Shown: piece by piece, positions 39,003 to 45,025 of the stretch
Numbering within the stretch: position 1 is the stretch's first letter
Layout of the letters: each line of letters starts with the position of its first letter
Source of the DNA: Pseudoxanthomonas sp. PXM02
GTDB taxonomy: Bacteria > Pseudomonadota > Gammaproteobacteria > Xanthomonadales > Xanthomonadaceae
Direction: 5' to 3'
Length of the DNA stretch: 64,000 nucleotides
NCBI RefSeq assembly: GCF_014851805.1
Contig: NZ_JACVAK010000003.1
Span: forward strand, 395,501-459,500
The notes under the pieces: generated by a model
What the model saw: the letters and a program-made list of their open reading frames with translations, nothing else
What the model was told of the DNA's origin: nothing
The model's database searches: none
Program-made: the position numbers and the translations under genes

Positions 39003-39101
39003 CCAGTGCATAGGTTGGGGTGAGCCTGCGAACCCCAACACATCGGCGTTTGTGGATAACGATGTTGGGGTTCAATCCGTTCACCCCAACCTATGCGCTG
39101 G
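39003..39101. repeat. Palindromic element, copy B (attC-like architecture)
   Basis: A 21-bp terminal inverted repeat (20/21 matches; 39003-39023 and 39081-39101) surrounds a perfect 11-bp inner inverted repeat (GAACCCCAACA at 39030-39040, TGTTGGGGTTC at 39063-39073). The two stems nest around one centre with a bulged spacer, a layout like a folded attC site, but the GTTRRRY/RYYYAAC core of classical attC is not exact. Copy A lies 1.3 kb away. Confidence 0.75.
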
Positions 39102-41993: not shown

Positions 41994-42836
41994 TCAATCT
42001 GTCGCGCTGATCTCGACCGCCGTCCCGCTGACGCGCACGCCGTCACGTACCTCGGCCGGGACCTCCACCTTCAGCACGCTGGGCCGGCCAAGGTCGTGGC
42101 CCTGGTGGATGACGAACGCACGCGACGCAGGCAGCTGGTCGCGCGCGGCGAGGTAGGCGCCGAGCGCGGCCGCGGCGGCGCCGGTGGCGGGGTCTTCCAC
42201 CACGCCACCGGGCGGGAACGGGTTGCGCGCGTGAAGTGTCTGCGCGTCCTCGCGCCACACCAGGTTCACCGTGGTCCAGCCGCGCACCTTCATCAACGCG
42301 GCGAGGGCATCGAAGTCGTAGTGCAGCTCGGCCAGGCGTGCGCGCGATGCGGCCGCGACGACCGGATGCCACGCGCCCGCGTACGCGAGTCCGGGCGGCA
42401 GCGTGGCATCGAGATCGTCATGGCGCCAGCCGAGCGTCGCGAGCAGTGCATCCAGATGTTCGGCCGACAACGCATCGACGCGCGGCGTCACGCTCGTCAG
42501 CGTGGCGGCGAGATCGTCACCGACCGTGACGCGCACGCGTCCGGCCTGCGTGTGCAGCACGACATCGCCGGGGCCGTGTGCGCGTGCGCGCGCCACCATC
42601 GCCGCGATGGTCGCGTGTCCGCAGAAGCTCACTTCGGCCAGCGGACTGAAGTAGCGCACATCGAGGTCGCCATCGGCACGCGGCAGCAGGAAGGCGGTTT
42701 CCGAATAGCCCAGATCGGCGGCGATGCGTTGCATGGCCGCGTCATCCAGGCTGCGCGCATCCAGCACCACACCGGCGGGATTGCCGCCCGCGGGATCGGT
42801 GGTGAACGCGCTGTAGCGCAGGACGGCAGCGGTCAT
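41994..42836 (-). CDS. PhzF-family isomerase/epimerase-like protein
   Basis: 280 residues from ATG 42836; a much longer frame upstream is a shadow of yczE. Start RYSAFTTDPAGGNPAGVVLDA, the catalytic-Glu motif GYSETAFLL, and RYFSPLAEVSFCGHATIAA are diagnostic of the PhzF fold. Most members outside phenazine clusters have unknown substrates. It overlaps the upstream membrane-protein gene by ATGA, so the pair is translated together. Confidence 0.9.
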   Translation of the reverse strand: MTAAVLRYSAFTTDPAGGNPAGVVLDARSLDDAAMQRIAADLGYSETAFLLPRADGDLDVRYFSPLAEVSFCGHATIAAMVARARAHGPGDVVLHTQAGRVRVTVGDDLAATLTSVTPRVDALSAEHLDALLATLGWRHDDLDATLPPGLAYAGAWHPVVAAASRARLAELHYDFDALAALMKVRGWTTVNLVWREDAQTLHARNPFPPGGVVEDPATGAAAAALGAYLAARDQLPASRAFVIHQGHDLGRPSVLKVEVPAEVRDGVRVSGTAVEISATD

Positions 42837-43513
42837 GGCGTGTCTCCGAGCGGGGTGCGTACGGGGGTGTCCAGGCGCACTACCAGATAGCGCAGGAAGA
42901 ACTGCGTCAGCGGGCCCACGCCGAACGCGAACACCAGCGTTCCCACGCCCACCACGCCGCCCAGCAGCACGCCGATGACCAACACGGTGACTTCGATCAG
43001 CGTGCGGATGCTGCGGATCGACCAGCCGGTGCGACGTGCGAGGCCGGTCATCAGTCCATCGCGCGGGCCGGGGCCGAGTTGCGCGCCGATGTACATCGCG
43101 GTGGCGACCGCACACAGCACCACGCCGGCTAGCAGATAGGCGCAGCGCAGCGGCAGGCCGTCCGGCGTGCCGAGCAGGGCGAGATTGAGGTCGGCGAACG
43201 GCCCGAGCAGCAGCGTGTTGGCCACCGTGCCCAGGCCCGGCATCTGCCGCAGCGGGATCCACGCCAGCAGCACCGCGACCGCGGTCACCACCATGACCAT
43301 GCCGAACGACAGCGGCACGTGCTGCGACACGCCCAGGTGGAAGACGTCCCACGGCGAGGCGCCGACCGCGCCTTCGATCATCAGCGCGATGGCCAGGCCG
43401 TACAGCCACAGCCCGACGAGGAGGCGCAGCAGGCGTTCGGGCAGGCGGCCGGCTTTCAATTGCGCGAGCGGGCCGAGATTGACGAGTCCGGCGGGGGGCG
43501 TGGTCGGTTTCAT
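42833..43513 (-). CDS. yczE: YczE/YitT-like integral membrane protein
   Basis: 226 residues with five to six membrane helices. VGLWLYGLAIALMIEGAVGASPWDVFHLG and GPGPRDGLMTGLARRTGWSIRSIRTLIEV match the YczE family. In other bacteria yczE is commonly divergent from a MocR-type regulator, as here. The transported or sensed compound is unknown. ATG 43513 lies inside the outer arm of the nested palindrome; phzF follows with a 4-base overlap. Confidence 0.85.
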   Translation of the reverse strand: MKPTTPPAGLVNLGPLAQLKAGRLPERLLRLLVGLWLYGLAIALMIEGAVGASPWDVFHLGVSQHVPLSFGMVMVVTAVAVLLAWIPLRQMPGLGTVANTLLLGPFADLNLALLGTPDGLPLRCAYLLAGVVLCAVATAMYIGAQLGPGPRDGLMTGLARRTGWSIRSIRTLIEVTVLVIGVLLGGVVGVGTLVFAFGVGPLTQFFLRYLVVRLDTPVRTPLGDTP

Positions 43514-43576
43514 GGGGCCACCTTCCTCCGGATTGGCTCTTTTCGATAGAGCCAATCGTGGGATAGTGGCCCCATG
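43511..43576. promoter_or_regulatory. Nested palindromic operator between yczE and the MocR regulator
   Basis: Outer arms CATGGGGCCAC (43511-43521) and GTGGCCCCATG (43566-43576) are a perfect 11-bp inverted repeat that includes both start codons. Inner arms ATTGGCTC (43532-43539) and GAGCCAAT (43549-43556) are a perfect 8-bp repeat about the same centre. Best explained as the dimeric MocR operator with overlapping divergent promoters. Confidence 0.75.
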
Positions 43577-45025
43577 GAACGCATATTGGCTCCGGACCGT
43601 CTCGCCACCCTGGTCGGCGACTTCCCGCGCACGCCCGCCTACCGCGGCCTGCGCCAGGCCCTGCAGGAACTGATCGGCGACGGCCGCATCCCGCTTGGCA
43701 CGCGCCTGCCCAGCGAGCGCGCCGTGACCGCGGTGCTCGGGGTATCGCGCAATACGGTGACGCGCGCCTATGCGGACCTGGTGGCCGCCGGCTTCGCCAC
43801 CGCGCGACAGGGCGCCGGCACGTACGCCGCGGTGCCGCTCGACCGCCGGCGCGCGCACGACCACGCGCTGCATGCGGTCGGCGTGGCGGCATCGCAGGAC
43901 GGCGCGGTCGACCTGAACTGCGCGGCGGGCGGCGCCACGCCCGGCGTCGCCGCAGCGTATGCGCGCGCACTGGACGCGCTGCCCGCCTATCTGGCCAGCG
44001 ATGGTTACCTGCCTTCGGGCCTGCCCGCACTGCGGGCGCTCATCGCGACGCACTACGTACAGCGTGGCCTGTCGACCACGCCGGAGCAGATCGTCATCAC
44101 CTCGGGCGCGCTGTCGGCCATCGCCATCATCGCGCGGGCGCTGACGCGTCCCGGCGATCGCGTGATGATCGAATCGCCGGTGTACTCGAACGCGATCGAG
44201 GCGTTGCGCCTCGGCGGCGCGCGGCTGGTCAGTGCACCGATGGCCGATCCCCTCGGCGACGAGGGCTGGGACGTGGCCGCGATCGAGGCGACGTTGCGGC
44301 AGACTGCACCGCGGCTGGCCTACCTGATTCCCGATTTCCAGAATCCCACCGGTTTCCTGATGGGCGAGGCGCAACGCGTGCGCTATGCCGCCGCACTGCG
44401 CGCGACGCGCACCACCGCCATCGTCGACGAGACGCTGCAGTCGACCTGCCTGTCCGACACGCCGATGCCGACACCGTTCGCGTTGCATGCGCCGGACGCG
44501 TTCACCGTCGGCAGCGCGTCGAAGCTGTGCTGGGGCGGCCTGCGCGTGGGCTGGATCCGCGCACCGCGCGACGCAGTCGACCGCCTGATCGCCACGCGCG
44601 TGCAGATGGACCTGGGCAGCTCGCTGTTCGACCAGCTGGTGGTGGCGGAGATGCTCGCCGCGGACGATGTGCTGGCCACGCGGCGCGAACAGCTGCGGCA
44701 GCGACGCGACGCGCTCGCCGATGCGCTGCGCGAACACCTGCCCGACTGGCGTTTCCGCCTGCCCGACGGTGGTCTGTCGCTATGGGTGCGCGTGCCGCAC
44801 GGCAGTGCCACGCAGTTGGCCACCGAGGTCGAGCGCAAGGGCGTCTATCTGGCGCCCGGCCCGGTCTTCAGCGTGGAAGGCGGCGCGGACACCTGGTTGC
44901 GGATTCCGTACGCCAAACCGGAGGACACGCTGGTGCGTGCGGTGAAGGCGATGGCGGAGACGTGGACGCAGTTGCCGCGCGAGTCCACCGCACGGCGTGG
45001 CGATGCGAGGCGGCTGATCGCCTGA
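43574..45025 (+). CDS. MocR/GntR-family regulator with aminotransferase domain (YczR-like)
   Basis: 483 residues. An N-terminal winged helix (about 1-85; GTRLPSERAVTAVLGVSRNTVTRAYADLVAAGFATARQGAGTY) is fused to a fold-type I aminotransferase domain with a PLP lysine in VGSASKLCWGGLRVGWI and PDFQNPTG. Such proteins sense PLP or an amino compound and usually repress or activate the divergent gene. Divergence from yczE and the nested operator support a YczR-type role. Confidence 0.9.
   Translation: MERILAPDRLATLVGDFPRTPAYRGLRQALQELIGDGRIPLGTRLPSERAVTAVLGVSRNTVTRAYADLVAAGFATARQGAGTYAAVPLDRRRAHDHALHAVGVAASQDGAVDLNCAAGGATPGVAAAYARALDALPAYLASDGYLPSGLPALRALIATHYVQRGLSTTPEQIVITSGALSAIAIIARALTRPGDRVMIESPVYSNAIEALRLGGARLVSAPMADPLGDEGWDVAAIEATLRQTAPRLAYLIPDFQNPTGFLMGEAQRVRYAAALRATRTTAIVDETLQSTCLSDTPMPTPFALHAPDAFTVGSASKLCWGGLRVGWIRAPRDAVDRLIATRVQMDLGSSLFDQLVVAEMLAADDVLATRREQLRQRRDALADALREHLPDWRFRLPDGGLSLWVRVPHGSATQLATEVERKGVYLAPGPVFSVEGGADTWLRIPYAKPEDTLVRAVKAMAETWTQLPRESTARRGDARRLIA

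Follow-up and report, generated by a model that had tools for sequence, protein, structure and literature searches.

A predicted four-half-site operator of YczR between divergent yczR and yczE-phzF in Pseudoxanthomonas sp. PXM02

The window analysed here, i.e., the whole stretch of 64,000 nucleotides from Pseudoxanthomonas sp. PXM02 (contig NZ_JACVAK010000003.1), harbours a divergent locus formed by yczR (43574–45025, + strand), encoding a MocR-family regulator, and yczE (42833–43513, − strand), encoding an integral membrane protein and followed by a gene for a PhzF-family isomerase. The two genes diverge across an intergenic gap of 60 bp, and this gap together with both start codons is covered by two nested inverted repeats. 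As judged from sequence comparison, these repeats quite probably constitute a YczR operator of four half-sites, through which YczR would turn off transcription from its own promoter and switch yczE-phzF. Control of both directions from one symmetric site, as proposed in the first-pass annotation of this DNA, is retained as the most likely role.

The outer repeat, CATGGGGCCAC (43511–43521) and GTGGCCCCATG (43566–43576), is complementary at 11 of 11 positions and includes the ATG of both yczE (43511–43513, − strand) and yczR (43574–43576, + strand), in agreement with the earlier description. The inner repeat, originally given as 8 bp, exists with a length of 10 bp (GATTGGCTCT, 43531–43540; AGAGCCAATC, 43548–43557; 10/10 complementary), and the two repeats are indeed nested, their centres lying half a base apart (43543.5 and 43544.0, respectively) instead of coinciding. 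Perfect 11-bp inverted repeats with spacers of up to 44 nt are common in the window, amounting to 34 k-mer pairs (overlaps included) versus a mean of 3.0 pairs in 40 first-order Markov sequences. Concentric pairs of 8-bp repeats form five clusters in the 64 kb, one of them at this site, versus a mean of 0.1 in random sequence. Conservation of half-site geometry is considered stronger evidence than rarity of the palindromes.

The palindrome arms are copies of one element, which reads, in one orientation, GGTGGCCC (H1), ATTGGCTC (H2), ATTGGCTC (H3) and AGTGGCCC (H4). With TGG as their core, these half-sites alternate in strand: H1 (43514–43522, − strand, GGTGGCCCC on that strand) abuts the yczE start codon and is followed by H2 (43532–43539, + strand), H3 (43549–43556, − strand) and H4 (43565–43572, + strand), yielding the arrangement CCA-N13-TGG-N15-CCA-N12-TGG. 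Boxes of the same orientation are 33 bp (H2–H4) and 34 bp (H1–H3) apart, corresponding to about three helical turns.

For comparison, 35 distinct gammaproteobacterial upstream regions (17 within the genus, 12 in other genera of the same family and six further loci), four regions from Mycobacterium/Mycolicibacterium and 51 Nocardioides-type regions were aligned, i.e., 90 rows in three sets; the relatives represent the best 80 of 479, hence the large Nocardioides-type set. The spaced core TGG-N15-CCA-N12-TGG (H2-H3-H4) is present in every row (35/35, 4/4 and 51/51), its chance expectation being about 0.0003 per random 130-nt sequence. Regarding the conservation of the arms, a check suggested with the first description, TGG is retained at H2, H3 and H4 in all 35 gammaproteobacterial rows (and in 4/4 from Mycobacterium/Mycolicibacterium) and at H1 in 30 of them, whereas the perfect arms are not kept. 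The outer 11-bp palindrome is perfect in 10 of the 35 rows (9/17 within the genus), the inner 10-bp palindrome in five (4/17) and the central 8 bp of the latter in 12 (10/17). These low counts rule out strict palindromes as the selected feature, and the two palindromic units originally described give way to four alternating half-sites. Column information across the 35 rows amounts to 1.29, 1.55, 1.70 and 1.67 bits in H1 to H4, as compared to 0.57, 0.85 and 1.18 bits in the spacers.

Beyond the aligned sets, the exact geometry was found in 12 of 31 other Actinomycetota regions with a YczR above cut-off and in five of nine regions from a plasmid collection (two Klebsiella, Enterobacter, Stutzerimonas and Deinococcus). 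Among the half-site pairs, H3-H4 (CCA-N12-TGG), which combines one inner with one outer arm, is retained most widely. In the genome of strain PXM02 itself, the H2-H3-H4 pattern matches a single site without mismatch, located beside yczR, and two sites with one mismatch. A further copy of ATTGGCTC in the early coding region of yczR (H5, 43585–43592, + strand) was set aside, since its TGG is kept in just 18/35 and 2/4 rows; H5 is probably not a conserved part of the operator.

The 19 other Actinomycetota regions deviating from the exact geometry comprise 16 in which CCA-N12-TGG is present but H2 is displaced or was not found, one with an N11 spacer and two without H3-H4, as determined with a script that tried a spacer of 12 first. 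Their H2–H3 spacer is 24 nt in six and 46 nt in eight cases, versus 15 nt in the exact geometry. A change of this spacer by whole helical turns is only suggestive, because the sequences concerned look closely related to one another. Ten similar-looking Actinomycetota regions (L149–L151, L154, L156, L157, L159, L160, L162 and L168) and one from Streptomyces (L137) keep the 12-nt H3–H4 spacer and have upstream TGG boxes at 24 and/or 45–47 nt instead of 15 nt, i.e., displaced by roughly one and three helical turns. Actinomycetota genes for YczR-like proteins below the cut-off (L170–L207) are often preceded by similar half-sites in a different layout, the best H3–H4 start distance being 15 in 15/38 and 16 in 9/38, with none found in 11/38. 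Regions L045, L049, L051 and L052 of Mycobacterium and Mycolicibacterium share the start-to-start spacing of 61 nt with the window, and their YczR proteins are 69–71 % identical to that of the window (Nocardioides-type proteins 51–59 %). Since identity is higher than for the Nocardioides-type proteins and spacing is the same, horizontal transfer of the whole divergon appears likely.

The regulator and the membrane protein belong to defined families. YczR scores 578.4 bits with NF052290 (curated NCBIfam cut-off 487.4), which places it in the YczR subfamily of MocR regulators, and displays the expected domain order of a GntR-type winged helix-turn-helix (PF00392, residues 23–84) followed by a fold-type-I aminotransferase domain (PF00155, residues 145–459). 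The published active-site signature of YczR, Val-Asp-Glu followed by Thr (PMC4944035), corresponds to VDET at residues 284–287 and is found in 6/6 proteins of one alignment; in a wider alignment (n=7), Val-Asp-Glu is kept in 7/7. YczE scores 248.5 bits with NF052291 (cut-off 205) and is encoded divergently from yczR, as in the YczR-YczE divergon. A class-wide search for YczR at E ≤ 1e-80 retrieved the genome of strain PXM02 alone among 274. Since both proteins exceed the curated cut-offs, the system is of a known kind, and together with the PhzF assignment detailed below the divergent MocR/yczE-phzF pair of the first-pass annotation is borne out.

A candidate extended −10 element of yczR (TG-G-GATAGT, 43559–43567, + strand), contained in a conserved upstream string with TG-N-GATAGT, overlaps H4. 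Given the usual distance between −10 element and transcription start, the predicted first transcribed base coincides with the A of the yczR start codon (43574). The distance from the T of the H4 TGG to this codon is 7 nt in 35/35 gammaproteobacterial and 4/4 Mycobacterium/Mycolicibacterium rows, and 8 nt in 48 of the 51 Nocardioides-type rows. Pairing of the sequence upstream of yczR with the tail of 16S rRNA (mean −3.6 kcal/mol over 35 rows) is no better than that of shuffled sequence (−4.4 kcal/mol). The yczR mRNA is thus probably leaderless, and the operator would touch the start codon because the transcript would begin there. The vicinity of the yczR ATG to H4 is explained most simply by such a transcriptional arrangement; blocking of translation starts, suggested earlier, is not supported. 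A literature search on MocR combined with leaderless transcripts gave nothing on an arrangement of this type.

The fourth box, H1, has a fixed register to the conserved core in most rows. CCA precedes the H2 TGG by 16 nt in 30/35 gammaproteobacterial and 38/51 Nocardioides-type regions (next best offsets 7 and 5, respectively), i.e., in two phyla, in one of the four Mycobacterium/Mycolicibacterium rows, and in three of the five plasmid-collection regions with exact geometry (Klebsiella aerogenes, Enterobacter and Stutzerimonas). Alternatively, the operator may consist of H2-H3-H4 only, H1 being the ribosome-binding and start region of yczE and its likeness to H4 a coincidence of start-codon context. 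This would agree with the direct contact of H1 to the yczE ATG, the purine-rich stretch preceding H1, the pairing of the yczE upstream sequence with the 16S rRNA tail (−13.0 kcal/mol), the three boxes of the published gammaproteobacterial YczR motifs (PMC4944035) and the lack of CCA at offset 16 in the K. pneumoniae and Deinococcus regions, which nonetheless contain H2-H3-H4. However, such a view does not account for the preference for one offset across phyla and in plasmid-collection regions, and in six rows that keep TGGC the yczE start codon is shifted by one base relative to H1 at unchanged H1–H2 distance. The register follows H2 and not the yczE ATG; this points, though not conclusively, to binding of a protein at H1 and not to a ribosome-binding site, and restriction of the operator to three boxes is regarded as rather unlikely.

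Folding of the inverted repeats in RNA is far less probable still. According to this explanation, the yczE leader transcript (or an antisense RNA) would form a hairpin hiding the ribosome-binding site and start codon of yczE, and indeed the − strand of 43511–43576 folds at −45.7 kcal/mol (z −9.3), 24 of the 35 gammaproteobacterial rows yield z < −3, and the outer arms contain four double-change cells versus 0–1 in slid controls. On the other hand, z exceeds −2 in 8/35, 3/4 and 26/51 rows, every one of which has the H2-H3-H4 geometry, and covariation is slight (4/385 cells in the outer arms; 11/350 in the inner arms versus 3–10 in slid controls). Moreover, a hairpin does not need H4 to repeat H2 in the same orientation, and a yczE transcript comprising all arms would have to start within yczR. 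The hairpin is accordingly unsupported by the covariation counts over 35 rows and by the folding of the 90 regions. Binding of the perfect palindromes by a dimeric regulator other than YczR is also very improbable, slightly more so than the hairpin; perfect palindromes are a common feature of repressor sites and binding of YczR is predicted here, yet the single perfect genomic copy of H2-H3-H4 stands next to yczR and the same geometry precedes yczR in all rows of the three aligned sets. Finally, a chance likeness of two divergent start-codon contexts in GC-rich DNA, which the frequency of 11-bp inverted repeats in the window might suggest, is practically negligible in view of cross-phylum conservation and of information peaking in the boxes, not in the spacers.

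Several observations weigh against the four-half-site operator of YczR. Both its binding by YczR and the transcript start are predicted. The exact H2-H3-H4 geometry is absent from 19 of the 31 other Actinomycetota regions, mostly through displacement of H2, and from four of the nine plasmid-collection regions. H1 is off register in 5/35, 13/51 and 3/4 rows as well as in two of the five exact-geometry plasmid-collection regions; among the 12 exact-geometry regions of other Actinomycetota, CCA occurs at offset 16 in none and at offset 17 in six. When up to two mismatches are allowed, the genome of strain PXM02 yields 48 sites versus 29 for the reversed control. A consensus promoter scan gave no sigma-70 site, so that the −10 element and the leaderless start of yczR are proposed from sequence and conservation by eye; the yczR leader of the window exhibits some Shine-Dalgarno-like pairing (−6.6 kcal/mol), and no clear promoter was found for yczE. 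Furthermore, the Thr of the YczR signature is not invariant in the wider alignment (Thr 3/7, Ser 4/7), and YczR is present in 17 of the 38 surveyed genomes of the genus only. A class-wide search for YczR at E ≤ 1e-80 retrieved the genome of strain PXM02 alone among 274.

The phzF-family gene (41994–42836, − strand) shares 4 nt with the end of yczE. Its product scores 238.5 bits with PF02567 (cut-off 27) and 200 bits with TIGR00654 (cut-off 76); the closest solved chain is YddE (E 1.1e-37). Among the 38 genomes of the genus, phzF accompanies yczR in 17 of 17 cases (68–100 % identity); it occurs in two of the 21 genomes without yczR, there as more distant copies (56–57 % identity). This co-occurrence is significant by Fisher's test (p 1.2e-8, not corrected for kinship) and reflects co-inheritance of the two genes. 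The 4-nt overlap of yczE and phzF is conserved in five of six phzF-bearing relatives measured (three Pseudoxanthomonas and two Arenimonas loci), while Luteimonas sp. 8-5 has a gap of 8 nt (extrapolated). Among 80 loci from genome contigs, phzF adjoins yczE in 11; it does not do so in two loci titled Pseudoxanthomonas (L043, L066). In ten scanned loci without phzF, the gene downstream of yczE encodes a metallo-beta-lactamase-fold protein in three cases, a TelA-family protein in two (both Nocardioides) and a protein without family match in five. The place that phzF has in the window is occupied by a metallo-beta-lactamase-fold gene in L041 and L044 of Lysobacter and in L052 of Mycolicibacterium. 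A phenazine operon is not indicated, as no other phz gene was found beside phzF among the scanned neighbours (yczE, yczR, an auxin-efflux-type carrier and one protein without family match), the rest of the genome not having been searched.

Any relationship of YczE to YitT-type proteins is distant at best: PF02588 reaches 18.9 bits, below the cut-off of 24.3, and 11 of 20 relatives match the family at E ≤ 1. The AlphaFold model of YczE is confident, with a mean predicted local distance difference test (pLDDT) score of 88; comparison with PDB chains by Foldseek gave no match at E ≤ 0.001, and a second structural comparison, with a best Z of 5.9 over 64 residues, assigned no fold.

With the operator assembled from H1 to H4, the following mode of control may be envisaged. 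H2, H3 and H4 would span the yczR promoter region, with H4 covering the candidate −10 element and the predicted start of a leaderless mRNA, whereas H1 sits against the yczE start. The H1–H3 and H2–H4 spacings fall into the class that has been described for MocR dimers in head-to-tail orientation. On binding, YczR would silence its own promoter and simultaneously set the output of yczE-phzF, either by repression or, once pyridoxal 5′-phosphate (PLP) or an amine or amino-acid ligand is bound, by activation. YczE (membrane step) and PhzF (isomerase/epimerase step) may then act jointly. Going further, one may tentatively speculate that the boxes form two interlocked direct-repeat sites on opposite strands (H1–H3, 34 bp; H2–H4, 33 bp), each taken by one head-to-tail YczR dimer and nested about a two-fold axis to control leaderless yczR and yczE-phzF, and that YczR-YczE-PhzF represents a co-inherited module in which the PhzF isomerase and YczE handle one metabolite; this extended proposal is rather doubtful.

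Until now, the YczR motif in the literature has had the status of a prediction, and the 90 regions with one ungapped core provide a testable operator of fixed spacing along with a fourth box. The operator also offers a handle on how a head-to-tail MocR dimer may read direct and inverted repeats. Since the data from the genus tie YczE, a membrane family without assigned function, to a PhzF isomerase, they provide a handle on transport or sensing by YczE.

Elsewhere in the window, a nested inverted repeat at 39013–39090 (GTTGGGGTGA.../...ACCCCAAC, twice) is separate from the yczR operator; two pattern searches of the window gave no further copy.

Half-site sequence and target genes distinguish the operator described here from those of PdxR and GabR. 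In layout, it resembles the PdxR and GabR operators, which combine an inverted box with direct repeats at a distance of two or three turns, and a head-to-tail dimer and autorepression are described for these regulators (Suvorova and Rodionov 2016, PMC5320631) as in the reading proposed for YczR. According to the same survey, autorepression is frequent among MocR regulators, the direct repeats that they bind are separated by two or three turns, and four-box motifs, the layout class of the window operator, are rare. PhzF-family genes are described there as frequent members of MocR regulons, e.g., PdxQ; these PdxQ-type regulons tie a MocR regulator to a PhzF-like isomerase as in the window, there together with transporters. 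The terms yczE, YitT and COG2364 are absent from the text of that survey. Attachment of phzF to yczE, which the first-pass annotation considered undescribed, was likewise not encountered in the literature searched on MocR/PhzF and YczE/PhzF, where PMC9465073 contains both YczE and PhzF; PhzF-family genes within MocR regulons are, however, described (PMC5320631).

The closest known system is the YczR-YczE divergon (PMC4944035; RegPrecise regulogs PdxR3), with the same divergent yczR/yczE arrangement and the same protein families, which agrees with the family context recognised from the outset. YczR was defined and its sites were predicted by Milano et al. (2016, PMC4944035), and a 2019 classification groups YczR with PtsJ and names as its putative target a membrane protein for sulfur compounds (PMC6677901). 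The main text of the former paper, apart from its supplement, contains no mention of Xanthomon, phzF, start codon or leaderless. The site predicted there for Actinobacteria, whose regions proved hard to align for the authors, is GGCCA-12-TGGCC; Mycobacteriaceae and Streptomycetaceae motifs include a further direct repeat and those of Streptomycetaceae a fourth (PMC4944035). For gammaproteobacteria, GTCCACT / ACTGGAC with 12 bp spacing plus the direct repeat GTCCATT was predicted (PMC4944035). The published operator thus shares the inverted repeat spaced by 12 nt and the direct repeat with the window (H3-N12-H4 plus H2), and the single perfect site of strain PXM02 has its counterpart in the lack of a second significant YczR site in the genomes scanned in that work. 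Whereas the published gammaproteobacterial motif comprises three boxes, the window has a fourth, H1, at the yczE start, and phzF after yczE. To the known YczR-YczE kind, the present locus therefore adds a fourth box in fixed register, a probably leaderless yczR and a co-inherited phzF.
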